Below are positions 5,201-56,053 of a stretch of 64,000 bases of DNA, piece by piece (position 1 is the first letter of the stretch; the number at the start of each line of letters is the position of its first letter). The position numbers and the translations under genes were made by a program. Under the pieces are notes generated by a model that did no database searches, had not been told where the DNA came from, and saw only the letters and a list, made by a program, of their open reading frames with translations. Origin of the DNA: Capsaspora owczarzaki ATCC 30864 (Eukaryota > Opisthokonta > Filasterea); contig NW_011887295.1 of the NCBI RefSeq assembly GCF_000151315.2, positions 310,001 to 374,000 on the forward strand, in the 5' to 3' direction.

Positions 5201-8200
5201 GCACTTGCGCATCATGGTGCAACCCAACGCGATCAAGGGCACGGTGGCAAAGCCAAACTCTTCCGCACCCAGCAATGCTGCCACGACAACGTCGCGGGCG
5301 GTGCGAAGTTGGCCATCCGTCTGCAAGACAACGCGGCCGCGAAGGCCGTTGAGAACGAGCGTCTGGTGCGTCTCTGCCAGGCCGAGCTCCCAAGGCAGGC
5401 CGGCGCTTTTCACGCCCGTCCAAGTGCTGGCACCAGTGCCGCCATCGTGACCCGACACGAGAATGTGGTCGGCCTTGCCCTTGGCCACACCCGAGGCGAC
5501 GATGCCCACTCCCGTTTCCGAAACAAGTTTGACGCTGATGCGAGCCTTGGGATTGGCGCACTTCATGTCGGAAATGAGCTGCGACAAGTCCTCAATCGAG
5601 TAAATGTCATGGTGCGGCGGCGGGCTAATCAGACCGACTCCAGGGGTTGAGTGACGCGTGGCCGCAATGTTGCCCGTGACCTTGTGGCCAGGAAGCTCGC
5701 CGCCTTCGCCCGGTTTGGCGCCTTGGGCCATCTTGATTTGGATTTCGTCCGAGTTGTACAGGTAGTCGATGGTTACGCCAAATCGCCCAGAGGCAATCTG
5801 TTTGATGGCAGAGCGCATCGAGTCTGCCTGCGGTGTGCTGGACGAAGCAGACGACGCAGCAGCGGAAGGATCAGAGGCGTAGCGCTTGCGGTCTTCGCCG
5901 CCTTCGCCAGTGTTGCTCTTGCCACCAATGCGGTTCATGGCAATGGCCAGAGTGGTGTGTGCTTCCTCGGAAATGGAGCCATAGCTCATGGCGCCAGTGC
6001 AAAACCGTGTCAAAATGGAAGCCGCCGACTCAACCTCCTCAAGCGGAACGGCTGCCGACCCGGACGACTCTGACGACGCTGGTGTGTCGACTCCGACAAT
6101 ATCAATCACTCCACGCAGTGTGCAGCCGCGAACTGCCGCGTTTGCATACTCAGTGTACCGGGCAAACGCGTCGGTGTTGTTCCGGCGGGCAGCGTCCTGC
6201 AGGAAGGCAATGCTCTCGGGATCGTTGATGTGCGCTTCTCCGTTGGCTCGCCAGTGATAGTCACCGCGATTGGCCAAGGATGCAGAGAGCAGGCTACCTG
6301 CCGTGACGGGGACAACAGGATGGCGATCCTTCACGCTGTGAGGTGTTTGATGCAGAGGCTGCTGGCCCACGCTGGTCGCCAACTCGTCGGCGGCCGCTGG
6401 GGCGTCCTGAGTGAGCGTTGCGGCTCCGGCTGCCTTGGTGCTCGCAAGTAAGTGCAAGTGGTGCTGGTTGGCACGCGCACGGGCCGCTGTTGTGCTGAAA
6501 AGCCGAACTGCGGCCGCGCTCGTTGTCGGTGCCTTGAACGACAGCCCTTGCAGCGAATGCGAAGACAGCGACGACGACAGATAGGGCAGTTCTGTTGGCA
6601 GGCCTTGGACGACCGACTGTTGCTCACGATGCTGTTGCAGCAGTACTTGGGCAAGCCTGTGTCGCTCTTCCGTGTCATAGGCAATCTCGGCAAAACCAAT
6701 GCCGCCGACGGCCGAGGTCGTTCCCGTAAAGCACAAGTCAATCACGGACTGTCCGAGACCAATCGCCTCAAAGATTTGGGCACCCTTGAAGCTTTGAAGC
6801 GTGGAGATGCCCATCTTGGCCATGACCTTGAGCATGCCGGCATTGACGGACTTGATGTAGTTGTAGTCCGATTGTGATACGTGGGTGCTGTTGGCGCGCC
6901 CATGGACATCGGGACGGATGGTGTGCTTGTGCGACAGGCTGCGAATGACATCCAGAGCCAGGTACGGACAGACGGCATCGGCGCCAAAGCCGACCATGAG
7001 GCAATGGTGATGGACTTCGCGCGCCTCGGCAGTCTCCACGATCAGAGCAACCTTCAATCGTTGTCTCGAGCGCAGCAGGTGCTGGTGAACAGCACCCACG
7101 GCAAGCAGCGCGCTGATGGGAGCCGCTTGTTCAAAGCGCGACGAATGAGCCGATGCGGGGTTTGCAGACAAGGCCGCCTCCGTTTTGGCGACAAAGCCTC
7201 GGTCGCTCAGCACAATGAAGGAGTAGCCTTCCTCCACTGCAGCGCTGACGTCCTCGCACAAGCGATGAATGGCACGCTCGAGCTGGTGCTTTGATTGAGT
7301 GTCGCCGCGACGACGACGACGACGACGACGACGACAAGGCGTACTCGAGAGGGAAAACCCGAGTGGCAAAGCCGGTTGAAGGATCCAGCTGTTCGACATG
7401 CTTGATGGCATCGAGCTGTGCGTCGGTGAGAATGGGCGAGTCGAGCACCAGACGGTGGCATTGCTGCGCGCTCGTTTCGAGAATGTTGCCAGAAGGGCCG
7501 ACAGCGCAGCGCAGAGACATGACAACCGCCTCGCGAATGGGATCGATGGGAGGGTTGGTCACCTGGGCGAAAAGCTGCTTAAAGTACTCGGAGGGCAGCT
7601 TGGGGAAGCGCGAGAGGACGGCGAGCGGGGCATCGTTGCCCATCGAGCCGAGCGCCTCCTTGCCGTGCTCACCCATCGGCGCCAAAAGCATCGACACGGT
7701 CTCTTGTGTGTAGCCAAAGAGCGGGAGCAGAATTGAGCGAACAGCCTGCGAGGGTCGCACCAGTTTCGACGAGCTGGCAGTTTCGCCCTTGAAGGCAGTG
7801 GAGCCAGGCAACGAGGCCCAGGCTCCCGAAAAGTTGTCATGCTCCGACTGCGAACGCAGCTGCTCGGCCTTCTCGACCAACGGGAGCAACCGCACCGCGC
7901 CCTTAATCCATTTGCCATAGGGTCGCGACGTGGCCACCTTCTCCTTGAGTTCGTGATCGTTGACAATCTTTCCTTCGAGGGTGTCGACCAGAAGCATTCG
8001 ACCAGGTTCCAAGCGGCCCTTTTTCTGCGGAGCGCAATGATGGCAAAACAAAACAGTGCGATACACAGCGAGTCAGCGACCAGAAAAAACAACAACAAAG
8101 GGTTCCACGCACACACAGCTTTTTTTTGTTTTTTGTTTTTCCCCCGTTTTCGCAAAAAATCCAAATCACAAAACCTACAATAATGCTGTTGCTGGGGATG

Positions 8201-9636
8201 CCTTCCACAACGCCAATCTCACTGGCCATGACCAACAGATCGTCCTTGGTCACCAGGAAGCGGCTGGGGCGAAGCCCGTTGCGGTCCAGCGTCGCTCCAG
8301 CAAAGCGTCCGTCCGTGAAAGTGAACAAGGCAGGGCCATCCCAAGGCTCGCTGACATGCGACGCCCACTCGTAAAAGTGACGCCGCGCCGCAGTGCTTCC
8401 GGAAGTGGTGATGCCATTCGCGCTGGAGTGCATGTTTTCCCAAGCCTCGGGCACGAGCATCATCATGGTCTCCGGCAGCGAGCGGTCGGAGCAGTTGAGC
8501 AGAAACTCGAGCGAGTTGTCGAGTGCCTGCGAGTCCGAGCCGTTTGGCTCAATCACGGGGTAGAGCGAGTCCAACGCGGCGAAGTGGGGGCTCGACATGA
8601 CGCCTTCCCTCGCGCGCATCCAGTTCTAGTGACGATACAGCAAAGAAAACAAACAAACAACCAATACAAAACATAACAAAACAAACAGCAAATCACGGTG
8701 AGAACCGGAAACAAAGATCGACCCACTCTGTGTGATCAAATGGCCTACCGAGTTGCCTTTGAGCGTGTTAATCTCGCCGTTGTGACCAATATAGCGCAGG
8801 GGCTGCGCTCGTTCCCAGCTGGGGAAGGTGTTGGTGCTAAAGCGACTATGGACAATGACGACATGCGAGGAGAAGAGGGGGTCGCTCAGGTCCTCAGGAA
8901 AGTAGGGGAAGAGCTGCTCGGGTGTGAGCTGGCCCTTGTACACGATGGTGCGCGTGTTGAGGCTGCAAAAGTACAGCGGTGCCGAGGCAGCGAGTCCTTT
9001 GCGGGCTTCGCGCATAAAGCGAAAAGCGCGCCTTCGGAGCGTGGCTTCAGCAACTGGAATGTTGGGAGCCTCGTTCGGCACCACAAACAGCTGCGAGATG
9101 CCCGGCTCGGCGGACTTGGCCACACTGCCCAGACTGCTATTGTCGGTGGCAATGTCGCGCCATGCCAGAACAGCCAGCCCGCTGGAGGCAGCTCGCTCCT
9201 CAAGCGCGCGCTTGGTGGCTTGGCGCACGTCGGGATTGGCGCTTAGAAAGACCATGCCAGTTGCGTACTGGCCGAGCGGCGGCAGCGTCACACCTTGCAC
9301 CTCGAGCGCGCGGGCGTACAGCTTGTGCGGGATGGAGGCGAGAATGCCAGCGCCGTCTCCGCTGTTCTCCTCTGCACCGACGGCACCTCGGTGGGTCATG
9401 TTGACCAGCACCTCGCGTCCGTGCTTGACAATGTCGTGCGAAGGGTTGCCCTTAATGTTGACAATCATGCCCACGCCACAGCTGTCCTTCTCGAGCTCTG
9501 GCTGATACAGGCCTTGAGCAGCGGGGAAGCGCGTGAATGCATTGTTGCCTGGACTCGGCTGTTGTTGTTGCTGCGCCAGAGTGGAGGCGCGACTTGGCGG
9601 TTGGTACGTTTTGTAACCTCGTCGTTTTAGTAGCAT
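2222..9636 (-). CDS. Glutamate synthase (NAD(P)H-GOGAT), fused large and small subunits
   Basis: Transfers the glutamine amide to 2-oxoglutarate, giving two glutamates. Exons on the minus strand: 9636-8749, 8625-8179, 8024-7359 and 7288-2222, about 2355 aa. The last junction is uncertain: the two frames meet in a CGA microsatellite and are reconciled by a 70-nt GT-AG intron (7289-7358) or by an indel. Order: class II amidotransferase with catalytic Cys in DSCGVGM, central domain, FMN synthase domain with 3Fe-4S cysteines in [19 protein letters not shown] domain, a Q-rich linker, then the GltD-like part with cysteines from CMDCGVPFC onward, an FAD site ([14 protein letters not shown]) and an NADPH/NADH site ([11 protein letters not shown]). 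It is longer than the roughly 2150 aa of fungal enzymes because of low-complexity inserts, two of which resemble mitochondrial presequences. The start ATG at 9636 precedes a basic, Q-rich leader; an upstream coding exon cannot be excluded. Confidence 0.93.
7308..7335. repeat. CGA trinucleotide microsatellite in glutamate synthase
   Basis: Nine CGA units on the plus strand. On the coding strand it reads as poly-Ser or poly-Arg depending on frame. The upstream frame carries the FPLEY segment and the downstream frame carries the HQLERAI segment, so the frame changes here. Confidence 0.9.
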
Positions 9637-39920: not shown

Positions 39921-41884
39921 ATGTTCAGTCAAGGGCATCGGCACACGGCGTCGACGGGCAGCGGCACGAGCGTCGCAAGCAGCTCAAACCCAAGCACTGC
40001 TGCGGCGAGCCATCCTCCTGCAGCAGGAGGCGGAGGCCCAACAGCCGCTGCAGTCGCGAGTGCTATGCTGCTTGGTGGTAGCGCAACGCCAGCAGCGTCT
40101 ACACCAACGTCGACGGGCAGCGCGGCGTCGCATGTCAATGGCCGCTCAACGCCCACTCCCGCCACCGCCGTGCCAGTGCCAGTGCCAGGCTCAGCGCCGA
40201 CAGCCGCCTCGCAACACGGCGCGCATAGCGCCCTCGTTGCTCAACCGTCTGCCCATACTGCAGGCGACGACGCAGACGGAAAGCGGGAGCAAAAACTCGC
40301 GCGAAAGCTGCGGCCGTTCGACAAGGAGGAAGACGCCGTCAAGCGACTGCGAGCGCTCAAGGACTATTGCGAGGCAGCGTCGGACGCAGAGCGCAACGCC
40401 TTCTTTGCCGGGAGACACTCGGCCGTGTTCATGCTGATCTGGGATGTCTTCACCCACATTGACGCCACAGCACGGCACAAGTTCACCAAGGATCGCCACA
40501 TTCCGGACAACATGCGCGAAGACATTTGCACCATCATTTACATTCTCGAGCGCCTCATCCACGCCGTGCCAGACCTCATCCGACGCAAGTGGAACGCGTC
40601 GGCAATTGGTCACATTCTGGAGCGCCTGTTGCACCACGGCAACGCACACAAGCTGCGACGCGACGGCTTCAGGCTGCTCTTGCGCTGGCTCGAAACCCTG
40701 CAGGACGAGCACTACTTTCGCGCCCTGCAGCTCTTCCGCGATGTGATTGTCGCACAAGCGCCAGAGGGCACGCGAATCATCAACCAGCACATTACAACCA
40801 CCTGGAGCATGAGTGCCCATGTCGGTGCTGTCGGCGCCGAGGGTGGTTTGGGACACGCGGGTGGCGGTGCCACTGCGCCATCGTCCGCGCTGGTTCTGCC
40901 CGGCGGTTCACACGCATCCGGCTCCACGCCGTTGCCGACCACCTTTACAGACTCTGCCAATCAGCTTCCAGGGATGCCGGCGCGAGCCAGCTCTGAAAAA
41001 TCCAGCAACAGCCCGGGGCCCGCGTCCGCCACCGGGACGCCTCAGACGGCCCGTGCTTCGTTGACTGGTGGTACACTCTCGCCATCTTCCTCCAGCCTGC
41101 CCTCTCTGAGCACGCCTGTTGGCGTGCCAGTACCACGCTCGTCCGTCCAGTTTGCATCCCTCCTCGGCGCGAGCACGCCGGCAGTGCCCGTCTCGTCCGC
41201 GGCGCACGGTGGGCCTGGCCTGATCTGCCCTCTGCAGCCGCCGCCGCCGGGAGCGCCGACCATGGATTTTACCATCGACCTGCTGAACTTGTTGTTCGAG
41301 TACCTGACGAACGACTGCCTGGCCATGTCGCTCGACCCTCAGGGCGGCATGACCGTGACAGACGAGAGCATGGCTCGCTTTGACTATCTATTTTCGCTGC
41401 TCAAGCGCTTCCACTTGACGACCTTCTATCCGGACGTCTGCAAGCGGATTGGGCTGCTCTCGCCAGATGCGACGTCAGGCTTCACTTCTCAATGCCCACC
41501 CTACTTTCATTCCGTCATTGTTCAGTGGCTTGTCAAGTGGTTGTCTGGCACGTCGTCCAAGCACCGCCACATCCGAAGTGTCCTCTACCGGACTGTCCAA
41601 CACACCGAGCTTGTCCACGAGATTCTGCGACAAAGCTTCCTCATGCCCGTGACGCACTGCGACACCATCCATGCCACAATTGGCGTCTACCGCGAGTGGA
41701 TTCGGACGGAAAATCCGCCACGATTTATGCTCGAGCCGCTTCCAACCGCAGGAGCCGCCGAGTCGTCGAACAATAGTGCTTCTTCTGGAAGCAACAGTCC
41801 TCGTGCAACTTCGTCGGTGCCCCGTCCAACAGCGGCGACTCCGGTCGCCTCTGCCACCACAGCCACGACAAAGAACGCGGATGC

Positions 41885-41918
<34 letters not shown>

Positions 41919-44900
41919 GCCTTCCGCACTGCGTCGCAAATGCAGCTGCTGGCAGCTCCGCCAACGGAAATCTCCATCGTCCACGCCGGTTCTCGGCGGG
42001 TGGCGGAGGAAAATGCCGTTCGATGGGGGCCCCAGGAGGCGTTGCGAAGGATGGCCTCGAACGCGGGGCTCGTTTTCTCTGTCAAACCGTGGGCCCCTGC
42101 GCATACAGACGATCAGCTCTTTGTTTGCGTCGAAGTCCTCTCGCTGTATCATCTCATCATGCTGGAGCCGGTGATCAATCTCGAGCCCAACACTTGGGAG
42201 CACATTCTGGGGCAACTGCTCGGCATTGTGTACCAGGCTCTCGTGCGTCGCCGACCCGGGGATGAGCCATTGTACAGCAAACTTTCGCACATTCTCCTGG
42301 AAACCCTAATGCCGGCGTGGATCCGCGCCAACATGCATCGAACAGTGTCCACTCCCCTCTGGCACAATCTCGCCCAAGTGCTCAGCTCGGCGACGCACTG
42401 GCCCGAGACAATCGGGGAATGGACTCGCATGATTGTCCAGCAAACCAAGACGCTTGCCTTTGTCGTTTACGATATTGACCTGGACGATCGACCCATCGAC
42501 AAGTTCCGCGAGATGGCCCCCAACCGCCTCTTTGCGTCCCGCCTTCAAGCCGGCAACGCTCAAGCCGGCGGAGCTCCACAAAACCCAACCACGGGCTCCA
42601 CCAAAGGCGCCCGTGTCAAGCTGAGCAAGTCGTTTCTCGAAAGCACCAAGCCTTTGCGCAAGTCGAGCTCGTCGGAAAGTCTGGTGAAACTCGGCGAGGC
42701 ATCGCCTGCGGCCGGGTCGTCGCCTGCCACGGTTCGCAAATCGCCCGACACGTCCCGGCGAGGCTCGAACAAGCGCGTCAGCATTTATGCCGCGCCAGTG
42801 ACGGAGCCGCCTGCTCAACTTGCACCTCGGTCTACGTCGTTCAGCTCTATCAACAAGTTCCGAACAAAGTCCCCTTCCTCTGCTTCTGGTAGCAGTGGTA
42901 GTGCAGTCACGGCCGAGACAAGTGTGGCTCCTCCTTCCTCTTCAACTAGTACAACTACTACCAAAGCGCAGCCGCTCCCTGTAGTGTCTCTGTCGACCAC
43001 GTCCTCGACATCATCCAACGCCTCGTCGGTATCGCCCGTCGCCTCGACGGGCCACTTGTCGCTGCCATCCACGTCAGCACAGACTTCGCCGACCAGCTTG
43101 CCGCCCTTCCATCCATTCCGTCGTCATCACACGCGCCTCTGCGGGCGTCTGTTTCTGCGAGTGCGCTTTCAGTCCTTGCCTCAAAATCGGACGACCTGCC
43201 GCAGTCCCTGTCCTTGACCCATATTCAACAACAACAACAACAGCAGCAGCAGCAGCAACAACAACAACAACAACAAGAGCCACAGCAGGACAGCAGCCCA
43301 GCCTCGACTTCCTCCACAGCTGCTGCGGCGCTGGATGAAGAAAAGGCCGCGGCCACTGCGGAGGAACTGGGCGCAGACGCTGGGGCGGCGGCCACCTCCA
43401 CGCAAGTTTCGGCGTCCAGCTCGACCGCGTCGACTGCAGCCGCGGCACCTTCCTCCGCCAACAACCCAGCGCATGCCCCACCCAGACGCTCGCGCTCAAT
43501 CACTGCCCAAGATGCGTCCGATTTTGACGCGCTGACGCTCGGCAACCAGTCGAAAACTTCTCGACTTTTGAGTGCAATGCGCGCAGCCTCTCACCAAACC
43601 TACATGGAGTTCCAGGACGTCGACCGACTCCCCTGGGTGCCTGAACGAGCCATGTTCCTCTGGAAGAATATGCTTGGCATTCTCGGCAACATCAACAACA
43701 TTCCCAACCCTGCAATTCACTGCACGGCCATTCAAGGCACGCTTCTTGTGCTCGACTTGCTTGTGGCGACGCGCGACAACCAGGGTATCTCCATGGACAA
43801 CCAGTCGACCCCGCCGGTGCCCCTGGAGCTCCCACCCTTGTTCATGTTCGTCGGCTGGCTCTGCCAGGCCGCTGCCATGCCGGATCACTTTCGCGCGGGC
43901 CGCTCGCTCGCCACTGGCGCGCTGTGTCGCCTGATGACTCGGCGGCTCGATCGCCCGGTGACGCTCGACTATCTTGCCCACTACTACCGTCTTTTGCACA
44001 GCGGCTTGCGGGGCAACGACCTCGATGTGCAGCATGCCATCATTAGCAACTCGACGCGCATCTTCACATTGGGCTTGCCCGGGTCGACCATGGTGCTCGT
44101 CGACTTTTTGACGGCAATTGAAAGCGTTCTGTTGACCAACCGCGCCGAGTCCTTTGCACTTCGAACCGACGCCCTGAAAATTCTGTTCTCGCTCACGTGT
44201 CTTCCCAACCTGTACAAGCCGGATGACAAGGTGCCCGACCTGCAACGCATGGTCAAGTCCCATCCAACCTACGCTGCTGCTGCTCCTGGCCACCTGGACA
44301 CCCAGACCCAGCCAGAGGTCTCTCGACAGGACCAAGAGCGCGACAGTGAGATCAGCATGCAGCAGGTGAAGGATCGGGTCATGATGCTGCTCATCCGCGT
44401 CTCCCGCGAAGAGCCACACACGCCCACGCGCTGCCATGCCATTTGTGCGCTTGCCACGTTTGTGTTTGACGAGCTGGCCAACAAAACCAACAACCCGCGG
44501 CTGTCCGAGTGCTTCGACGTTCTCTTGGCGTTGCTCCGGTGCGACGAGCCGCAGGTTGCGCAAATGGCAGTCAAGATGCTCTCAATGCTGTCCATGCAGT
44601 TTGCATCACTCTCGCAGATGGGAGGTCAGCTTGTCGACAAGGTGTATGCCACCATTTCGGCCACCATTCGAAACTTGCTCGAGAACGAGCTGCCCACCTC
44701 GCCCATGGGCGCCACGGCTGCCACAGCCCATGCCGAGGAGCTAACGGTCGCACTCATGTTCTGCCTGTTGGATTGGCTGATGAGCAGCCCGTCCGACGTG
44801 CTCAACAACACACCCATCGCTCAAACCGTATTTGATGTGATTGACCTGGCCATCAATCCATTCCACTCTTGGACGGCCAACCCGCACTACCTGGTTCCAT

Positions 44901-47900
44901 CCACCACGGGATCGACGTCGTCGACCGCATCCACTCGTGACCGCAATCCTGCCAATGCCACGCATGCTGCGACAGTCGGGTCCGCCCACGGGCAGCAAAT
45001 TCTGCAACAGCAGCAAGGACAGTCGCAGCAGCATTCGCACGCCGCATTGCGGCAAGCCAATTCAATGAACGAGGGTCGCGTGCCCCCTTCGCTTGATGGG
45101 CTTTACACACCAAACTCCCACGCAGCAGCCAGTGCAAACGATCGTCGTTCTGGCTCTGTGTACAGTCGACCGACCAGTCTTGCTTTGACACATGCCACGG
45201 TTGCTGGCAACCCACCACCCACACAACAGCAGCAACAACAGCAGCAACAGCAACAACAACAGCAACAGCTGCAGCAACAACAACAACAACAGCAACAGCA
45301 GGCTCTGCAACCACCTCGCTCTGAAGGCCCTTCTGGCTCCATGCCCAACGACGACACGCTCAGCGTTGCGTCTGGCACTTCCGTCACTACGGCTGCCTCG
45401 GGACCCATTTCATCACCTTCGTCGCACAGATCGGGTCTGCGGGGCATGCTGGATGCCGTACAGCGAGGGGTGGACGCGTTTGAGGGAGCACACACGCACA
45501 TCAAGCATGCCATCCGCAAACGAGATGGACCTGCCGGTTCATCGGCTCAGTTTGCGCCTGCATCTGGTGTCGCTGGCAACGCGACACCTCCAACGTTTGG
45601 AGCCGCGGCTGCAGCGGCGGACGGGGCCGGCGGGCCTGGAGAAGCACCGCATGCGACCACTGCTCATGCTGCTGCGGGGGGCACCATTACCAGTCCCCCT
45701 GCGCCGTCAGCTTCCGGAGCCACTGGCTTTTCCATCCACGACGTGCGAACGCCGCGACCAGTGGTGGCGATGGCTGCCAAGAACATGCTCTTCCATCTGC
45801 TCAACCATCTGAACAATTTTCCCTCTGCCGCCGGCGTCGCCTGCTTGACCAGCCGCGTCACAGAGTATGACGAGGTGACGAGTTCTAACGAGCTGACCTC
45901 GGAATTGTTCGATGCCCCAGGCGTCCAGTTCTTTGTGCTCAACAGCTCGACGCTCATCTCGCTGATTGAGCTTCCGAGCAAGGTGCTGGGCGAGCCCCCT
46001 CGCGCGCGAGTCCTGCTTCGTGACATGACTGGCAAGTATGCTTGGGATGCTACGTTGCTCTATCAAACGCAAATGCAACGATCTCGACAAGGCACCCTCT
46101 ACCCTGGCCTTGCTGCCGAGTTTGATCTCGAGCACCAGGTTGTCGAGGACTCGTCGCGGCGCGCGATTGTCTTCCCCGACACTGGGTATGTCCGCCGGCT
46201 CAAGACTGTCCCGCGCTGGTCGAGCGGCGAGAGCGTTGTCGCGCGCTTTTTGCCATCTGCCTTGTCTCTAAACGAGTCATCCGCGCGTGCCAGCGTGGTG
46301 TCGGAGACGTCGTTCGACTCGAGCGAGCCCTCGCCGACTGGGCGGTCTGGCACTGCTGGCCAGTCAAATGGCGTTCCGAACGGCAACGCGCCGCCCGCCT
46401 CGGCGCAAGGCTCTGGGTTTATTGGCATTGGGCCAAGCCCCGAATTTGTCGCGTGGTCGGAGCGCGCAACCATGCGCCGTCCCTCCACCGTTCTGCAAGC
46501 CAGTCCCGCCGCCCTTCAAACCACCACCAAGAGCACCTTTGGCGTTGACATGCTCGACGAAGCGCTCAAGTATCTCGGCGAAACCAGCTCCGAGTGCCTG
46601 CACTTTGCCCACGTTCCGCTGAATGTGCCCTATCCCACTCCTGAAAGCATGCAAGCGCAGGAGGATGCCTTCCTCGCTGCCCTGCATCTCCAGCATTCCT
46701 CGGAAGAAGAGTATTTGGCCCAACGCGCCTCCAATCCGCGGTGTGTATTCATGGTCACAAGTGTTTCTGGTTTTTTTTTTTTTTGGTTGGCAACTCATCG
46801 TGTTTGTTTGTTTGTTTGTTTGTTTGTGTGTGCTCTCGTCCTATTTTCTCATTGCAGGCCCAACATGACTCCTCAACCGGTGCAACCCAAAATACCCGCG
46901 GAACCCATTTCTCCGTTCCACCACTGTCGCTTGCTGCTCTCGCATCTCGGCTTGCTCACATTCGAAAATCGCCGACACTTCCATCTTTTGCGCAAGAATG
47001 ATGCCCTTCTCCGGCTTTTGAAGGCGCTTGATACCTCGGGCAGGTATGAAGCGAGCAAGCGTGCATTAGCGCCTCATGTTGCTTTGTTGCCGTCCTCGTT
47101 CAGTGTTTTGGATCGTTGCCCTGACAAATGTTTGCTTGACGCAGTCGAGACTACCACAAGATTGGCATCTTGTATGTGGCGCCCGGCCAGGAAGATGAAC
47201 ACTCAATTTATGCCAATGTGAAAGGCAGCAAACTCTATGAGGACTTTTTGGCTGGCCTGGGCTGGGAGGTAACTTTGATGCATTTTTTGCGAACGCTTGT
47301 ACAACGTAGTGAATCACGTCGCGTGTTGCTCACTCTACTCCCTCTGCGCTAGGTCAACTTGGCGACGCATCGCGGCTTCTTTGGCGGCTTGGATCCAAAC
47401 CTGTCCACGGGGCGCTCAACGCCATTCTACGGCACGTCGACGATGGAAGTCATTTTCCACGTCGCGACGCGAATGATCCCCGTGAATGGCGACACCGACA
47501 TGAAGATTATCAAAAAGCGGCACATTGCCAACGATCGCGTGCGAATTATTTGGTGCGAGCACTACCGTGATTTCCGGCCCGAGATTCTCCGTACCAAATT
47601 CGACGAGGCGACCATCGTCATCTACCCTCTGCCCAATGGCTTGTACCGTATTTCCATTCTTCGCAAGCCCGAGGTAACTAGCCATGGGACTGGCATGCCG
47701 TTGTTTTTGGTTTCGTTTTGTTGTTGGGCTCGCTCCTGTCGCATGGTCAGACTTTTTTTTTTTGGCTGACTCTTGCTGTGCTGGCGTTGACCAGATTCCG
47801 CTGTTTGGACCGCTGTTCGATGGCGCGGTTGTCGACAAGAAAGTTCTCGCTCCCCTTGTGCGCGAAACGGCCATCAATGCCAACCGTGTCATTGTGTCGC

Positions 47901-48773: not shown

Positions 48774-50555
48774 TCACAGAGGCTCCTTGCTCTGCGTAAT
48801 AAACTCGATAATTTTGGCGCTGTCCTTGGCGCCGTTGGTCTCGACACCGGACGAAACGTCGACGCCCCAGGGAAGCGCGACAGCAACACATTCCATGACG
48901 TTACTTGGAGACAGGCCGCCCGCAACGAGCACTGGGATGGCATGCACTGCGGCGACATCCTTGGCCACCTTCCAGTCGAAAGTCACGCCGCTGCCTCCCT
49001 GCTTGAGAAGTGCGGCGACGGGCCGCATGAAGGAGCCTGCCGCAGTCAGCGAATTGGGCACTCCCGCAGTCACGACAACTCCCGTGCCTGCCTCGGGCTC
49101 GCTCGCATTTTTCGCGGCCTCATACAGCTCTGAGGGCGTCAGTGAACGAGAGCGGGTCATGGGCGCCTCAGGCATCGTGCGGACGAACGTGTCCAGGAGG
49201 CCAAACGCAAAGCGACCTGGCACCAGCTGATCAACGACCGATTGAGTGGTATCGTGCGGAGCCACGTGGATGGCACGAATGACTGGGAAGTTGATGCGGA
49301 GCGAGAGACCGGCCGGCTCGGTGGTTCCATGCAGCTGCACCAAATCGACGCCCAGGTCAGCCGCGACGCTATTGATGCGTTCGGACGTGTCGTCAGCAAA
49401 CACAGCGACAAACAGCGGACGACGCTGCAGCAAAACCCGCTCGAGAATATCGGCGGTGTGGCGGAACCACTCGGACTTGCCCCACTCGCGTGAAACGTCA
49501 CCACCGGCCAGAGCGCGCAGCTCTTGGAGGGCGCTGTCGGTCTCGGCCTTGCTATTTTGGCTGGCGTCTGCTCGAACGGCCTGGATGATTTGCTTGGCAA
49601 GCTCGGGAGGAACGTAGCGCTTGGATTCCGGCACGCAAATCATGCCAATCAGGTCGGCGCCATTTCGCGCAGCGCACAACGCATGCTCGACGGTGCTGAC
49701 GCCGCAGACTTTGACCAAAGGCTCGCGCGTTCCAGACGAGCCGAGCAACCACGAAATGTAGCGCGCAGGGTCCTTGGCGCGCATCAGCGCCTCACCAACC
49801 AGCACGCCTCGGGCACCGCTGGAGGCAAATCGCACAACGTCGGTTCGAGTGGCAATGCCAGACAAGGCGACCAAGATAACGCCTTGGTTGGGTGGGATGA
49901 GAGCAGCCAGTGCGCTGGTTCTGCCCATGTCCAGCGTAAAGTCGGTCAGATTCCGGTTGTTGACGCCAATCACCTTTGCGCCAGCAGCCACAGCACGCCT
50001 CGTCTCGTCCGCGTCTGCCACTTCGACCAAGGGCTCCATTCCAAGACCACGCGAGGCTTCCAGCAGGGACTCGAGCAGCTCTTGGCTGAGGCACTTGACA
50101 ATCAGCAAGACCGTGTCGGCGCCGTTCGCACGCGCCTCGAGAAGCTGGTACGTGTCGAAAATGAAGTCTTTCCGGAGAACAAACGGACGCCGGTCGTTCT
50201 GAGGAAAGGCAGCTTGCAGCGCCGTGCGCACGGCCAGCATGTCCTCCAACGAGCCTTTAAACCACTTGGGCTCGGTCAAGACGGAGATGCCGAGAGCGCC
50301 GGCGTGCGCATACCGCAATCCTTGCTCGGCAGCATTCATGCCGGGTGCAATGTCGCCCTTTGAAGGCGAGGCTCGCTTGATTTCAGCAATCAGCGAGAAC
50401 TGAGTCGAGGCACTTGACAACGCAGTGTGGATGTTGCACGGGGCGAACGCCGAGGCACTGATGAGAGCTTGCAGCTGCTCCTCCGAGACGGCCGCCCTTG
50501 CGTCGCGCACATCAAGTGCGCGCTGCGCAGTGATGGTATCGAGAATGGTCGTCAT
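48774..50555 (-). CDS. trpCF: Bifunctional indole-3-glycerol-phosphate synthase / phosphoribosylanthranilate isomerase (TrpC-TrpF)
   Basis: One exon, 593 aa, start ATG at 50555 (MTTILDTITAQRALDV). The N-terminal TIM barrel (about 1-260) is IGPS: AEIKRASPSKGDIAPG, LRKDFIFDTYQL, GVNNRNLTDF, LVALSGIATRTDV, GEALMRA. The C-terminal barrel (about 270-590) is PRAI: VKVCGVSTVEHA with the catalytic Cys, GMICVPESKRYV, VAVFADDTSERI, VDLVQLHGTTEP, DTFV, FDWKVA, VLVAGGLSPSNV, GVDVSSGVET. PRAI converts phosphoribosylanthranilate to the carboxyphenylamino sugar and IGPS closes the indole ring. The order C then F is that of the E. coli fused enzyme. The PRAI domain is longer than usual because of inserts after SQNSKAETD and around SRSLTPSELYEA. 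It is the last of three trp genes on this strand. Confidence 0.95.
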   Translation of the reverse strand: MTTILDTITAQRALDVRDARAAVSEEQLQALISASAFAPCNIHTALSSASTQFSLIAEIKRASPSKGDIAPGMNAAEQGLRYAHAGALGISVLTEPKWFKGSLEDMLAVRTALQAAFPQNDRRPFVLRKDFIFDTYQLLEARANGADTVLLIVKCLSQELLESLLEASRGLGMEPLVEVADADETRRAVAAGAKVIGVNNRNLTDFTLDMGRTSALAALIPPNQGVILVALSGIATRTDVVRFASSGARGVLVGEALMRAKDPARYISWLLGSSGTREPLVKVCGVSTVEHALCAARNGADLIGMICVPESKRYVPPELAKQIIQAVRADASQNSKAETDSALQELRALAGGDVSREWGKSEWFRHTADILERVLLQRRPLFVAVFADDTSERINSVAADLGVDLVQLHGTTEPAGLSLRINFPVIRAIHVAPHDTTQSVVDQLVPGRFAFGLLDTFVRTMPEAPMTRSRSLTPSELYEAAKNASEPEAGTGVVVTAGVPNSLTAAGSFMRPVAALLKQGGSGVTFDWKVAKDVAAVHAIPVLVAGGLSPSNVMECVAVALPWGVDVSSGVETNGAKDSAKIIEFITQSKEPL

Positions 50556-50917
50556 CAAGCGGGGCTGACTATGGGGATGAAGGATCAAGCAGGGGGAGAA
50601 AACGGAACAGTAGAGAAAAAAAAAGCAACGAGGGAAGGCGGGAGGGGGGAGGAGGAAACACAGAAGGTGAGCAAAGGGAAGAGAAACGAATAAAAAGAAT
50701 TGGGGGGGGGGGAGGAAAAAAAAAAAAAAAAAGAAGAACACGAAGGTTGGATCAGGAATTGACCAATTTGAAGAACAGCAAAAAAATCAAACGACTTGAA
50801 TCACGGGAAGAAACGAAATATCAGGAGAAGGGAAGGGCACGGGGAAAAAAAAATGAATGTCAAACGAAAAAGAAGAACGGAAACGAAAATAAGGAAAACA
50901 CAACCCGACGGCAAACT
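50556..50917. other. Spacer between TrpGD and TrpCF
   Basis: 362 bp, purine-rich on the plus strand, with a G tract next to an A tract at 50702-50732. It must hold the TrpGD 3' UTR and TrpCF promoter. A prokaryotic-like operon linkage is unlikely at this spacing. Confidence 0.55.
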
Positions 50918-52908
50918 TCAAGTACGGCGAGCAGCCACGGATTCAGTAATGAACTGCTGCAGGACTTGAAGCGCACGGCCTGAAGCGATGGCTTGCTTGG
51001 CCTGGGCGACGCCAGCTTTGAAATCAGCAGCCGCGCCTGCAGCAACGAGCAGCGCGGACGCGTTCATGGTCACGAAATCGAGAATTGCGCCGTCAATCTT
51101 CCCCTCGAGGAGCTGGAACAACGTGGCTGCGTTCGCTTGAGGATGAGAACCCACGACCTCCTCAAGGGCGTGAAGAGGCAGGCCAAAGTCGGCGGGAGAA
51201 ATGGTCAACTCCTCAATTCGTGAGCCACGCAGTCTCCAAACGGTCGTAGGTACCGCCGGGCTGATCTGTGTTTGCAAAAGAAAAAAAAAAGCCGAAATAA
51301 AAAAATATACATGAGTGTCACACATAACACAACACAGAGTAATCATAAACACAAACACGTCAAGCCGTTTTTCAAGCTCACCTCATCAAGACCGTCCTGA
51401 CCATGAACCACGAGGGCAGACTGAACACCACGGAGGGCAAGTGCATCGGCCATCAGACGTCCGACCTCGGGGGAAAACACGCCAACCACCAGGGCTCGTG
51501 GACGGGCAGGACTCGACATTGGGCCCAGAATGTTGAAAATGGTCTTTGTGCCAATCTCCTTGCGCACGGGCGCCACGTGACGCATGGCAGGATGGAAGCG
51601 CTGCGAGAACAAGAAGCAAAAGCCAGTCGACTGCAAAATGGAAGCCACGGCCGCAGGATCGAGCTCGAGGTTTGCACCGCAGGCTTCGATGAGATCGGCT
51701 GCGCCACAAAGCGACGACGCAGAACGGTTGCCGTGTTTGGCCACGCGCACACCACAGGCAGAGGCGACAATGCCGGCTGCGGTGGACACATTGAACGTGT
51801 CAAGTCCGTCGCCACCAGTGCCAACAATGTCAACCACGTCGAGAGGCGAATCCGGGAAGCAGTTGAGCGACAATGCGGGGGCATCAATTCGGAGTGCATG
51901 GCGCGACATGACTTCGGCGCACGCAGCGACAACAGTCGGGGTGTGGCCGCGGAAGCGCAGCGCCAGCAAGAACGAAGCAACTTGAGCCGGGGTGGCCGAT
52001 CCGGTGAGCATGGCTTGAATACCAGCACGCACAATGTCAAGGTTGTCCACAGGGCCCGAGCCGTCCGCCAGTTTCTTGACGCACTCGCGCATGGGAATGG
52101 CCGGAATCTCTGCCGGGGAAGTTGTAGTTGGAATGGGCGCTGCGGAAGGTGCGGCGGCGGCAGCGGTGGACTGTTGCTGCTGCTGTTGCTGCTGTTGCTG
52201 CTTTTGCTCCTGCTCGCTCCAGGTGCCGGCAGTCCACGACAAAAAGTTGCGCATCATCAGCATGCCTTCCTCAGACTTGATGGATTCCGGATGGAACTGC
52301 ACGCCCTCGCAGACGTACTCGCGATGCCGGACGCCCATGATGACGCCAGAGTCGGTGCGAGAAGACACAATCAGCGATTCTGGCACCAGCGAGCGGTCGC
52401 CGGCGAGCGAATGATAGCGAATCACTTGAATCTCGGGAGTCACGTTGAGGTAGAGACCCTTTCCGTCGTGATGGAGCGTGGAAGTCTTGCCGTGGCGGAT
52501 TTCACCAGCATGAATAACCTTGCCACCAAACACCTCGAACATGGCCTGGTGACCAAGACAGACGCCCAAAATCGGGATTTTGCCAGCAAAGTGCAGAAGC
52601 GCGGCACAGGAAATGCCAGAGTCTGTTGACGGATGGCCTGGTCCGGGCGAAATGACCAGGTGCGTCGGGTTAAAATCAATGCAGCCTTGCAGCGAGATGG
52701 CATCGTTCCGGATGACGGAGACGTTTGCACCAAGCTCGCACAGGTACTGGTAAATGTTCCAAGTGAAGCTGTCGTAGTTGTCAATCAACAGCGTTTTGTT
52801 GGAGGCGGTAGTTGCAAGACGCGGGCCGGCATCCTGGATGGCGAACGACGCGGATCCAAAAGCACCTGGCGCGCCGCCGCTCGTTGACGATGAAAGAGAT
52901 TGTGACAT
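50918..52908 (-). CDS. trpGD: Fused anthranilate synthase glutamine amidotransferase / anthranilate phosphoribosyltransferase (TrpG-TrpD)
   Basis: Exons (minus): 52908-51382 and 51265-50918, phase 0, 624 aa. The start is the ATG of MSQSLSSS; the open frame 12 nt upstream begins only with TTG. The TrpG domain (about 30-225) has [17 protein letters not shown], the oxyanion strip ISPGPGHP, the nucleophile in [15 protein letters not shown], and the His/Glu pair in [11 protein letters not shown] poly-Gln and Ala-rich linker follows. The TrpD domain (about 265-620) has [17 protein letters not shown], the phosphoribosyl-pyrophosphate and anthranilate site [40 protein letters not shown], and [11 protein letters not shown]. 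TrpG releases ammonia from glutamine for TrpE, and TrpD adds phosphoribose to anthranilate. Fungi instead fuse TrpG to TrpC; a G-D fusion is typical of enteric bacteria. The intron near the end shows the gene is nuclear, not a bacterial contaminant. Confidence 0.95.
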
Positions 52909-53007
52909 GATGGTAGTCAAAAACAGGGGGGAAAAAACGTTAGGAAAATGCGGAAACCAAAGCTAGACACACACGGGACTTGATTTGTCACTGGACACAG
53001 GGGTCGA

Positions 53008-54519
53008 TTACTGCTGCTGCTGCTGCTGCTGCTGCTGGTCAAAGTAAAAACGCTCGGCTTGTGCAATGGCAGCAATACTCGAGTTCAGTTTGCTGATCGT
53101 CTCTTCGTACTCGGAGGTCGGGTCAGAGTCAAAGACAATGCCAGCGCCAGCTTGGAGGTATGCGACACCCTTGTGCATGACAATGGTACGAATGGCGATG
53201 CAGGTATCAAGTTGACCGCCATAGGTAAAGTATCCGACAGATCCCGCATACACGCCACGGCGTTCCTGCTCCTGAGCCTGGATGAGCTGCACCGCACGGA
53301 CTTTGGGAGCGCCAGACACTGTGCCAGCGGGGAAGATGGAGCGGAAGGCATCCAGTGGCGTAATCTCGGAACGGAGAGTTCCCGTCACTGTCGACACAAT
53401 GTGCATGACATGCGAGTAGCGCTCAATGTGCATCAGCGAAGGGACCTTGACGCTGCGAGGCTGGCAAACGCGGTTCATGTCGTTGCGGCCCAAGTCGACC
53501 AGCATGATGTGCTCTGCGCGCTCCTTCTCGTCGGCAAGCAGCTCGGCTGCGAGAAGATCGTCTTCTGCGGGAGTCTTTCCGCGACGGCGGGTGCCAGCGA
53601 TCGGGTGTGTCTCCACCAGGTTGTTCTCGTCGACTTTGACAAGCATCTCGGGCGAGGCGCCGACCAGAGACACTTCTCCGAGTTGGATGAAGAACATGTA
53701 CGGGGAAGGATTGATGCTGCGGAGGTGACGATACAGGTTGAACGGATGCAGCGACGTTGGTCGCGAAAGACGCTGGGAAGGCACAGCTTGGATAATGTCG
53801 CCCTTGTTGATGTGCGTCTTTAGATCACGCACAATACGCTCGTAGCCTTGCTGGCCTTGGTTGGACTGGGCAACATTGCCAAGAACGATCGGGCCTTGGA
53901 CTGGCACGGGAGTGTCCACCCGGCACAGCTGTGCGAGCGTCTGACGGACAGTTTGAGTGGCCGAGTTGTAGGCGGAACGAAGGTCTTCGGGGTGGTTGCT
54001 CGTGGGCACACGAACGTGACCCACAACGCGAAGTTGATGCCGCAGGTGATCAAAGACAACAATCGTGTCGCAGTACATGAAGATGGCTTCGGGCAAGAAG
54101 GGCAGATTGTCCTGAAGGGGCTGCGCAGTGTGCGGCTCAAAGGAATGCACGCAGTCAAAGCTAATGTAGCCAATGGCGCCGCCTGTGAACATGGGCAGCC
54201 CAGGAATGGGCACAAACTTGTACTTGGCAAGCTCCTGCTCGACGGGCTTGAGCGGATCGCCAGTGAATTCGTGGCCCGCGCCAACTTTGGCAACGCGGTA
54301 CGGGTTGACGCCGAGAAACGAGTAGCGTGCGAGCTTTTCGCCGCCGGCAACGGACTCGAGCAAAAAGGCATACTCTTGGTCGAGGCACAGCTTCAGGTAG
54401 GCAGCGACAGGGGTGATGAGATCGAGGAAGGCTTCCGCGTACACGGGGATCATGTTTCCGCGAGAGGACAGCTCTTGCACCTCCTCAAACGAAGGGCGGA
54501 AGACGGGAGAGTGGGACAT
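53008..54519 (-). CDS. trpE: Anthranilate synthase component I (TrpE)
   Basis: One exon, 503 aa. Makes anthranilate from chorismate and ammonia. The tryptophan feedback site is intact: FLLESVAGGEKLARYSFLG (LLES motif), matching fungal and cyanobacterial forms more than the enterobacterial one. The chorismate-binding fold shows GGAIGYISFDCVHSFEP, VPSQRLSR, NPSPYMFFIQLG, VGASPEMLVKV, HPIAGTRRRGKT, EHIMLVDLGRNDMNRVC, MHIVSTVTGTL, FPAGTVSGAPKVRA, RRGVYAGSVGYFTYGGQLDT and QAGAGIVFDSDP. It pairs with the TrpG domain encoded 99 bp downstream on the same strand. The protein ends in about nine Gln encoded by a CAG run immediately before the stop. Start ATG at 54519. Confidence 0.96.
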   Translation of the reverse strand: MSHSPVFRPSFEEVQELSSRGNMIPVYAEAFLDLITPVAAYLKLCLDQEYAFLLESVAGGEKLARYSFLGVNPYRVAKVGAGHEFTGDPLKPVEQELAKYKFVPIPGLPMFTGGAIGYISFDCVHSFEPHTAQPLQDNLPFLPEAIFMYCDTIVVFDHLRHQLRVVGHVRVPTSNHPEDLRSAYNSATQTVRQTLAQLCRVDTPVPVQGPIVLGNVAQSNQGQQGYERIVRDLKTHINKGDIIQAVPSQRLSRPTSLHPFNLYRHLRSINPSPYMFFIQLGEVSLVGASPEMLVKVDENNLVETHPIAGTRRRGKTPAEDDLLAAELLADEKERAEHIMLVDLGRNDMNRVCQPRSVKVPSLMHIERYSHVMHIVSTVTGTLRSEITPLDAFRSIFPAGTVSGAPKVRAVQLIQAQEQERRGVYAGSVGYFTYGGQLDTCIAIRTIVMHKGVAYLQAGAGIVFDSDPTSEYEETISKLNSSIAAIAQAERFYFDQQQQQQQQQ

Positions 54520-54751
54520 GGCGGAGAGATAAACAGAGATGACAGAAAGGAAAATACGGAAAGGGAGAAGAGAGAGAGAGAAAAGAGAGAGAAATGAAAA
54601 TCAAACAAAAAACTCTTGAAATATCGGAACCAAAATCAAGAAGTGACGATTCGCTGAGGAGATGATCGGAACTTCAGCGGGAGACGAAAGCGACGTACGA
54701 GAAGGCAGTAAGGCGCTTTGGTTGTGTATTCAACGACCGTCGTTTTTGTTT

Positions 54752-56053
54752 TTAGGCTTGAATGGCCGGGGAAGGTCGATGCCAAGACATGGCCAGATGC
54801 GCCCACAGAGGCATGAGCGGAAGGGCGTTGGGGCGCTTGGAAGGCGTCAAGGGGCTCACATGAGTGGCGGGCTGAACAGTTGCCCGCTTCATCAGGCGAG
54901 TGGAAGAGCGCACAATGTAAGTGACGACGGAACGGGTCATGGCCGCAGCAGAGCACTGGCGGATTGAGCGGACACGACGCAGACGGTCGCGAAGGAGCGC
55001 TTGCTGGGGCGTGAGTGTGGCAGGAGCAACACGCGCAAACGACGGGGACGAGGCCACTGGAGTGCCCACTGGCCGCGAGGCAGGAGCGGTGCGAGCCTTG
55101 GTGGTCGAGACAGTCGAGTAGAACGCAGGGCGAGTGCCAGCAGCGACAAAGGTCACCGAGCGAGCAGCGGATCCGCGTCGTGCCAGCAGAGGCGTCAGGG
55201 ACGGGGCGTACACCTTGGGCAGGGCAATGCGAGCCTGGGCAGGCGGAGCAACAAAGGCGAGGGCAGCCTTAAAGTTCAGCTCGTGCTTTGGAATCCGAGG
55301 CAGGATGGAGCTGTCGAGAATCTTGGCCTTTGCAAGCATCGTTTCAGCAGCAGCAGTGGTGGTGGTGGTGGTCGAGGTCGAGGTCGAGGTCGAGGAGGGC
55401 ACAGCGACCTGAACGGCGACTGTGACTGGCAGCGGCGGGAAGTGGGTCGCGGACAATTGGAACCCAGCGGCAGAGTCGCGTGTCATGCGCATCGATGACG
55501 ACGTGGCAGGGCGAACGCGAGTGGCGCCCCTGCGATGGCGCTTGGTGGAGCGAGTGGTGGCAGCAGCAGCGGAGGAGGAGAAGGCTGTCGTCGTGGCGGT
55601 TTGCTGGTTCTCAACGCTCTGTGCAAACAACGAGGGGGAGAAGGGGGTTTGAGCGAGAAAGGAGCAGAATGGAGGAGAGATGTGAGCAAATAGATCAAAA
55701 AGTGGAAGAACGGAGGACGACAGAACAAGAAGGCGAGGGGGAAGGTGAAGAAGGGGAAGAAGAAAGGAGAAATAAAAAAATAAAAAATAAAAATAAAAAA
55801 AATAAAAAAATAAAAAGGCGATGACAGCATCGCGCCATGATCACGCATTTGTTGTGTCATCCGCACGCACACACGCATCGAACAGCAACAGCACTCCAAT
55901 CTCACGCATCAAGAAGAGATACTAGAACGACATTAGAGAGAGGAAGAGAGAGAGAGAGGAAGAGAGAGAGATCAGAGCGCAGGGATCGTTTCGCGTTACC
56001 TTGTGAGCGGAGAACTCGAGCACGGTGCACCGGTGGGCGGTCAAGTCACCCAT
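54752..56053 (-). CDS. Unrecognised basic Ala/Ser/Thr-rich protein upstream of trpE
   Basis: Exons (minus): 56053-56000 and 55618-54752, phase 0, 306 aa. The start ATG has an AACATGGG context and encodes MGDLTAHRCTVLEFSAHK. The second exon is basic and low in complexity (Ser/Thr/Ala runs, RSTKRHRRGATRVRP), followed by more ordered stretches such as LPRIPKHELNFKAALAF and TLTPQQALLRDRLRRVRSIR. No domain, signal peptide or membrane segment was recognised. The stop lies 232 bp upstream of the TrpE start on the same strand. Support comes from a clean intron in phase, a good start context and GC-rich codon use. It could be a regulatory or structural protein with disordered regions; no function is assigned. 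Confidence 0.6.

Follow-up and report, generated by a model that had tools for sequence, protein, structure and literature searches.

How did three genes for tryptophan biosynthesis come to stand side by side in the genome of the protist Capsaspora owczarzaki ATCC 30864, in the order and orientation of the front of a bacterial trp operon? They lie on the minus strand of a eukaryotic contig, from 54519 to 48774 of the stretch that was analysed (64,000 nucleotides of contig NW_011887295.1, positions 310,001 to 374,000 of the forward strand; hereafter the window, to which coordinates refer), and run TrpE, TrpG-D, TrpC-F. An earlier note, made from the letters of this DNA, had described the succession and offered two origins for it, an old transfer of a bacterial block that was kept together, or convergence. 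Our analysis confirmed that the cluster is real, and we consider it likely to be what survives of the front of a bacterial trp operon, one of the Dehalococcoidia type that entered in ancient times. The features of the cluster, with the evidence for each in brackets, are as follows.

53008..54519, minus strand: TrpE, anthranilate synthase component I, 503 aa, intronless, with a poly-Q C-terminus (open reading frame (ORF), Pfam, tree)
52909..53007, minus strand: spacer from the TrpE stop to the TrpGD start, 99 nt (sequence)
50918..52908, minus strand: TrpG-TrpD fusion gene, 624 aa once spliced (ORF, Pfam, trees)
52213..52797, approximate, minus strand: TrpG (glutamine amidotransferase) domain, C-terminal AGTW (Pfam)
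52081..52212, approximate, minus strand: linker between TrpG and TrpD, rich in Q, A and P (translation)
50918..52080, approximate, minus strand: TrpD (anthranilate phosphoribosyltransferase) domain, with the intron inside (Pfam, tree)
51266..51381, minus strand: predicted intron of spliceosomal type in the TrpD part, 116 nt (GTGAGC...ACACAG; sequence-based prediction)
50556..50917, minus strand: spacer from the TrpGD stop to the TrpCF start, 362 nt, T/C-rich (sequence)
48774..50555, minus strand: TrpC-TrpF fusion gene, 593 aa, start ATG at 50555 (ORF, Pfam)
49740..50555, approximate, minus strand: TrpC domain, with the motif PKWFKGSL and a lengthened loop upstream of VLRKDF (Pfam, tree)
48774..49727, approximate, minus strand: TrpF domain (Pfam)
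49419..49565, minus strand: insertion of 49 residues in TrpF with a GxV...WF motif, at a place common with the Dehalococcoidia group defined below (alignment)

The coordinates of the earlier note hold, and Pfam finds every domain above cut-off: Anth_synt_I_N and Chorismate_bind in TrpE, GATase, Glycos_trans_3N and Glycos_transf_3 in TrpG-D, and IGPS and PRAI in TrpC-F. The spacers, put at about 100-360 bp beforehand, measure 99 and 362 nt, and the poly-Q stretches are there as described, nine Q at the end of TrpE and a Q-rich linker between G and D. So is the intron in TrpGD, which is in phase 0 and has 34% GC; seven splice choices leave the frame open, and 51381-51266 was chosen because it keeps the conserved GLDEISPA stretch. 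The start codon of TrpC-F is the ATG at 50555 and not the GTG at 50741 with which the mechanical ORF begins. All the motifs checked in the G, D, C and F domains, which we take to be the catalytic ones, are intact, and the three products are most likely ordinary working enzymes. A repeat search over 50500-54800 yielded CAG/Q and other low-complexity tracts together with some short matches present in two copies. The Gcn4-like motif TGASTCA occurs six times in the window, where chance would give a mean of 10.2, and not at all within the cluster. The intron, the size of the contig (2.14 Mb, in a genome of 27.46 Mb and 29 contigs) and the eukaryotic-type ORFs next door place the cluster in the nucleus of a eukaryote. 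T-box matches were also obtained in this genome and, like its size, are in keeping with C. owczarzaki.

Which bacteria come closest was examined by a TrpGD scan of 84,980 prokaryote species, which gave 468 pattern matches and 371 relatives, 80 of which were kept; the scan is biased to near kin, since it was seeded with short peptides of the window's own TrpGD. Twelve loci, whose record titles read Dehalococcoidia, Chloroflexi or bacterium HR29, make up what we call the Dehalococcoidia group (L026, L028, L029, L031, L032, L034, L036, L039, L040, L042, L043 and L057), and ten of their genomes belong to one class, as they were matched again when the class of L026 was searched. In phmmer comparisons window TrpC scored 238-268 bits in the group (12 loci) against 170 for the best other locus, and TrpG 230-246 (11 loci) against 221. 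For TrpE the group reached 483-599 bits (10 loci, 8 of them clearly above the best other score of 521), and for TrpD 259-336 (12 loci), where 11 exceed the best other score of 264 and the lowest value comes from a locus cut by a contig end. TrpF gave 65-84 bits (11 loci) against 67 in L095, so that the ranges touch. The best bacterial match to window TrpE is 59% identical, and global identity is 55-58% to eight group rows and 49% to L039; taking E, G, D and C together, most members (e.g. L026, L029, L032) are about 51-59% identical to the window, and their TrpF about 40-46%.

The group shares more than sequence with the window. Its operon runs E...G-D-C-F-B...A on one strand. Nine of the twelve loci have it complete; three are truncated, with genes missing at one or both ends, and agree in the order that remains. 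The linked genes of the window thus have the order and strand found in these bacteria, though in the latter other same-strand ORFs stand between E and G (about 1.5-2.3 kb) and also between B and A, splitting E and A from the G-D-C-F-B core, and all the genes are unfused.

Searches with TrpE over whole genomes pointed to the same bacteria. The query had matches in 27/27 genomes. Ten of the twelve genomes in the group scored 569-601 bits, and the other two, L031 and L039, 483 and 492. Among 301 Chloroflexota genomes 268 had a match, three at 587-601 bits and the next at 514; in the class of L026, 32 of 343 genomes passed 1e-160 with 536 to 615 bits, and the edge of the group is therefore not sharp. 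At E 1e-140 no genome passed among 398 from the phylum of a Rickettsiales metagenome-assembled genome (MAG), 296 from that of Geothermincola and 296 from that of a Rhodothermales MAG, in surveys that scored the best few candidates per genome and contained no positive control of their own, though the query was the one that had matched in the 27/27 genomes and in the class of L026. Against plasmid records, of other bacteria and haloarchaea, identity reached at most 43% among the best 40 of 684 matches.

The trees carry the argument further. They were computed under LG+C20, with yeast TRP1, TRP2, TRP3, TRP4 and TRP5 as the eukaryote yardstick, and supports are given as bootstrap/Shimodaira-Hasegawa-like approximate likelihood ratio (SH-aLRT). 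The prokaryote rows used, out of those extracted, were 56/103 for E, 48/88 for G, 53/102 for D, 41/58 for C, 38/38 for A, 41/43 for B (L042 and L056 left out) and, in two attempts, 33/44 and then 27/44 for F. The window and yeast rows are joined at 100/99 in E, 100/97 in G, 96/91 in D, 99/93 in C, 95/86 in A and 94/89 in B, and the two together with the group at 100/100 in E (L031 and L039 standing elsewhere), 100/99 in G, 100/97 in D, 100/99 in C, 94/89 in A and 96/93 in B. Rooted with two paralogue rows taken for PabB, the E tree sets this assemblage inside a Chloroflexota clade of 32 rows (100/100). Concatenating E, G, D, C and F (35 rows, 1,425 columns, L031 and L039 counted in the group) gave 100/100 for window with yeast, for both with the group, and for the whole set within Chloroflexota; the window also fell with the group when yeast was omitted, in a quick concatenated tree (SH-aLRT 100). 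Approximately unbiased (AU) tests rejected four other positions for window and yeast: with rows of Rhodothermota (1.4e-4), with Bacillota (6e-86), with Actinomycetota (1.5e-4) and with a set of six further Chloroflexota loci (2.6e-5).

Three markers outside the trees agree with this placement. The insertion in TrpF is 37-39 residues long in 12 of 44 prokaryote rows, namely L095 and all 11 rows of the group; six further Chloroflexota rows have 20 residues there, 26 rows have 0-3 and the window has 49. The GxV...WF motif of the insertion is common to group and window, and the insertion's columns were kept in part in the TrpF trees. At the tail of TrpG, GG.W occurs in 11 of 88 rows, some of which are one genome twice, and these 11 are the rows of the group and no others; at this place the window reads AGTW and the yeast row GGTW. 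The TrpC motif PxWF(K/H)G with a longer loop is found in 12/12 group rows, the window and yeast, and the W in none of 46 others. L095, a Chloroflexi MAG outside the group, has both the TrpF insertion and a lengthened TrpC loop and is possibly a deeper relative. The one shared bacterial affinity that separate domain phylogenies were expected to reveal, if a block had been transferred, was thus obtained by tree for E, G, D and C; for F it is the shared insertion that indicates it, as its trees lack resolution.

A search of the genome for trpB and trpA, also called for at the outset, located both together on another contig (C6), with the same affinity by tree. We propose that A and B are joined there as one gene, fused in the host. 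The TrpA part of this gene (C6, about 475.7-476.6 kb) shows a frame change near a short repeated FNPFYVHG stretch, for which a small intron, an error in the assembly or a genuine break could account.

The yeast rows deserve separate comment. TRP4, the yeast row of the D tree, is identical to PDB chain 7dsj over 380/380 residues, and in the TrpD list of solved structures 7dsj and its kin match it; a search of solved structures by molecule name gave no fungal relative for E or CF. By identity, the bacteria nearest to yeast are the Dehalococcoidia group for E, G and C. In fungi G is fused to C or to C and F, and the trp genes are scattered. The earlier note had set them apart from the window on these grounds, and the fusions do differ, no G-D fusion being known on the fungal side; judged by yeast, however, the lineage is not another one, as yeast rows are sisters in six trees (E, G, D, C, A and B). 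For these six domains the C. owczarzaki genes would thus belong, with their yeast orthologues, to one opisthokont trp lineage. The fungal G-C(-F) fusion may then reflect the donor order once D had gone from its place. When plasmid records were queried with yeast TRP1, 1,897 of 72,556 matched, 1,303 of them from Escherichia or Klebsiella.

Since the genes point to one source, keep the same order and strand, and share their position with yeast, we infer an old operon transfer to the common ancestor of C. owczarzaki and fungi. An operon of the Dehalococcoidia type (E, G, D, C, F, B and A, all in the same orientation) would have reached that ancestor in a single event, and its genes would have turned nuclear, gaining the intron and the poly-Q stretches. 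Neighbours would then have fused, G with D and C with F in the cluster, and A with B away from it. TrpE, TrpGD and TrpCF would have stayed linked in donor order and orientation, while the A-B gene came to lie on the other contig. TrpE with the TrpG domain would make anthranilate, to which TrpD would add phosphoribose; TrpF and TrpC would carry the product to indole-glycerol phosphate, and TrpA-B to tryptophan. Separate eukaryotic transcripts are predicted, not one operon transcript.

Several observations weigh against this account. TrpA and TrpB are unlinked to E-GD-CF, and the adjacency of E and G is absent in the living relatives, because ORFs separate the two in the group. L031 and L039 combine G-D-C-F of the group type with a TrpE of another Chloroflexota branch, a natural swap of the first gene. 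The TrpB score separates the group weakly, and in the B tree window and yeast are two long branches meeting, possibly falsely according to the program, which gave a long-branch warning in all trees; the yeast rows have a deviating amino-acid composition in four trees (E, D, F and concatenated). In both attempts at the TrpF tree the window joins no supported set, its nearest row by identity is L050 outside the group (47%), followed by L057 (46%), yeast F is nearest to L046 and L063 and then L026, and the yeast TRP1 row has seven residues at the insertion site, so that the insertion is not shown there; AU values of 0.27 for window with group and 0.285 for window, yeast and group reject neither placement and lend no support thereby. 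The TRP1, TRP2, TRP3 and TRP5 sequences used are, unlike TRP4, unconfirmed, cyanobacteria, planctomycetes and chlamydiae are missing from the trees, the window is their sole holozoan, and the AU groups were named after the trees had been seen.

The strongest rival accepts the same single source and supposes that the genes were scattered in early eukaryotes and regrouped here by selection for linkage, as happened in the fungal GAL and DAL clusters. That TrpA-B is unlinked here would fit, as would the published statement that trp genes are unlinked in most eukaryotes (PMC3942023). Regrouping would, however, have to restore donor order and orientation, a single arrangement out of 24 for three genes and out of 1,920 for five separate domains (overall orientation ignored), and the G-C fusion of yeast would agree with G, (D) and C having been neighbours in the ancestor. 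We regard regrouping as unlikely and, by order alone, favour retention; through the shared Dehalococcoidia affinity, transfer of a block that was kept together is supported over convergent assembly.

Much less probable is that each gene was gained separately from related Dehalococcoidia. L031 and L039 do show that E can be replaced independently of G-D-C-F, but six domains have the same kin and operon order is preserved among the genes that are linked. With six trees in agreement, a different origin for each domain is not favoured either. Transfer in the opposite direction, from a eukaryote to Dehalococcoidia, is about as improbable. In four trees (D, A, B and concatenated) window with yeast is sister to the group, which by itself gives no direction; the rooted TrpE tree, however, nests eukaryotes and group within Chloroflexota, and the bacterial genes are unfused in a longer operon.

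A donor of the E. coli type would account at once for the order and both fusions, and the likeness that the earlier note saw is genuine: order, strand and the two fusions are the same in the E. coli trp operon (L098). The likeness is not descent. Window TrpE passes the NCBIfam model trpE_most (541.7 bits, cut-off 517.7) and fails trpE_proteo (324, cut-off 494.65), and so is not of the E. coli-type family. TrpGD scores 581 with the bifunctional model PRK14607 (cut-off 670) and 366 with PRK09522 (cut-off 738), both below, and the best model for TrpCF is bifunctional PRK09427 (284, below the cut-off of 380). C and D of E. coli are distant from those of the window, its TrpF lacks the insertion and its TrpC the W motif. 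AU tests against E. coli covered C, D and G, TrpE being incomplete in L098 and missing from the E tree; they rejected window with E. coli for TrpC and TrpD (p-AU 0.0013 to 0.038; C 0.0013, D 0.009), and for TrpG, where yeast was held together with the window, the result was borderline (0.059). The caution voiced beforehand about a recent enterobacterial donor was therefore well placed, and TrpE family and AU tests for C and D rule such a donor out, leaving it a negligible probability. A special tie to E. coli through the fusions is not supported either: the fusions look like host events, because the nearest bacteria carry G, D, C and F as separate genes, and most likely G-D and C-F arose in the host without any connection to the E. 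coli fusions. Contamination with bacterial DNA and misassembly, in favour of which nothing was found, are hardly credible given the intron, the poly-Q, the 2.14-Mb contig, the neighbours with RALGAPB_N and Rap_GAP domains and a best bacterial TrpE at 59%.

These neighbours are ORFs on the plus strand at 39921-47766, convergent with TrpCF, and are probably one gene; the one with Rap_GAP ends some 1 kb short of TrpCF. A glutamate synthase gene with joined large- and small-subunit domains lies at 2225-7525 on the minus strand, likely with a further exon at 8626-9636; its distance to the trp cluster is about 40 kb. In the whole genome, where match counts are lower bounds, PF00425 and the TrpCF protein query each had at least one match, the cluster's own TrpE and TrpCF. 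As PF00425 matched TrpE alone, no PabB-type aminodeoxychorismate synthase was detected, and the organism may be without its own synthesis of para-aminobenzoate.

Operon transfers into eukaryotes are known as recent, accessory gains. Yeasts have reportedly acquired a bacterial siderophore operon (Kominek 2019), which resembles the present case in being a bacterial operon linked in a eukaryotic nucleus; that one is recent, accessory and confined to few yeasts, whereas the window cluster would be ancient and serve a core pathway. Elsewhere, stramenopiles and dinotoms have fused anthranilate synthase I-II (E-G), InGPS-PRAI (C-F) and tryptophan synthase (TS) alpha-beta, which join operon neighbours as here, with no mention of linkage in the part of that source available to us (PMC3942023). 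One gene of Euglena combines five of the pathway's catalytic domains according to a source that also mentions bacterial operons of the order EGDCFBA (PMC2395257). The trp genes of Archaeplastida, like those of the window, are of bacterial origin, but they derive from mixed cyanobacterial, chlamydial and planctomycetal donors, so that a single source is not the general eukaryotic pattern (PMC4916741). Capsaspora itself was used in a survey of genes lost by animals that included trp genes, linkage not being mentioned in the portion at hand (PMC4339202), and another source, in the portion at hand, names it solely in a lysine gene tree (PMC3846528). Among the titles and abstract openings of the open-access papers that the searches listed, we found neither a Chloroflexota link to eukaryotic trp genes nor a description of this cluster.

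If the reading of a retained Dehalococcoidia-type operon is true, a core amino-acid pathway of the fungal and holozoan lineage arrived as one block from one bacterial class, and the linkage of the transferred block is still visible in a living protist. Genes so far studied singly would have a common source, and there would be a reason why fungal G is joined to C and F. The tie between a Chloroflexota subclade and opisthokonts could be used by molecular clocks, and the origin of eukaryotic biosynthetic pathways would become a question for a denser tree. More tentatively, and with somewhat less than even confidence, we suggest that a single Dehalococcoidia operon gave rise to the entire trp pathway of opisthokonts, and perhaps to that of other non-plastid eukaryotes, in which case the known eukaryotic fusions (E-G and C-F in stramenopiles, G-D and C-F here, G-C-F in fungi, and A-B) would for the most part unite neighbours in the operon, and these fusions and this cluster would be fossils of one bacterial gene order, perhaps more than 1 billion years old.

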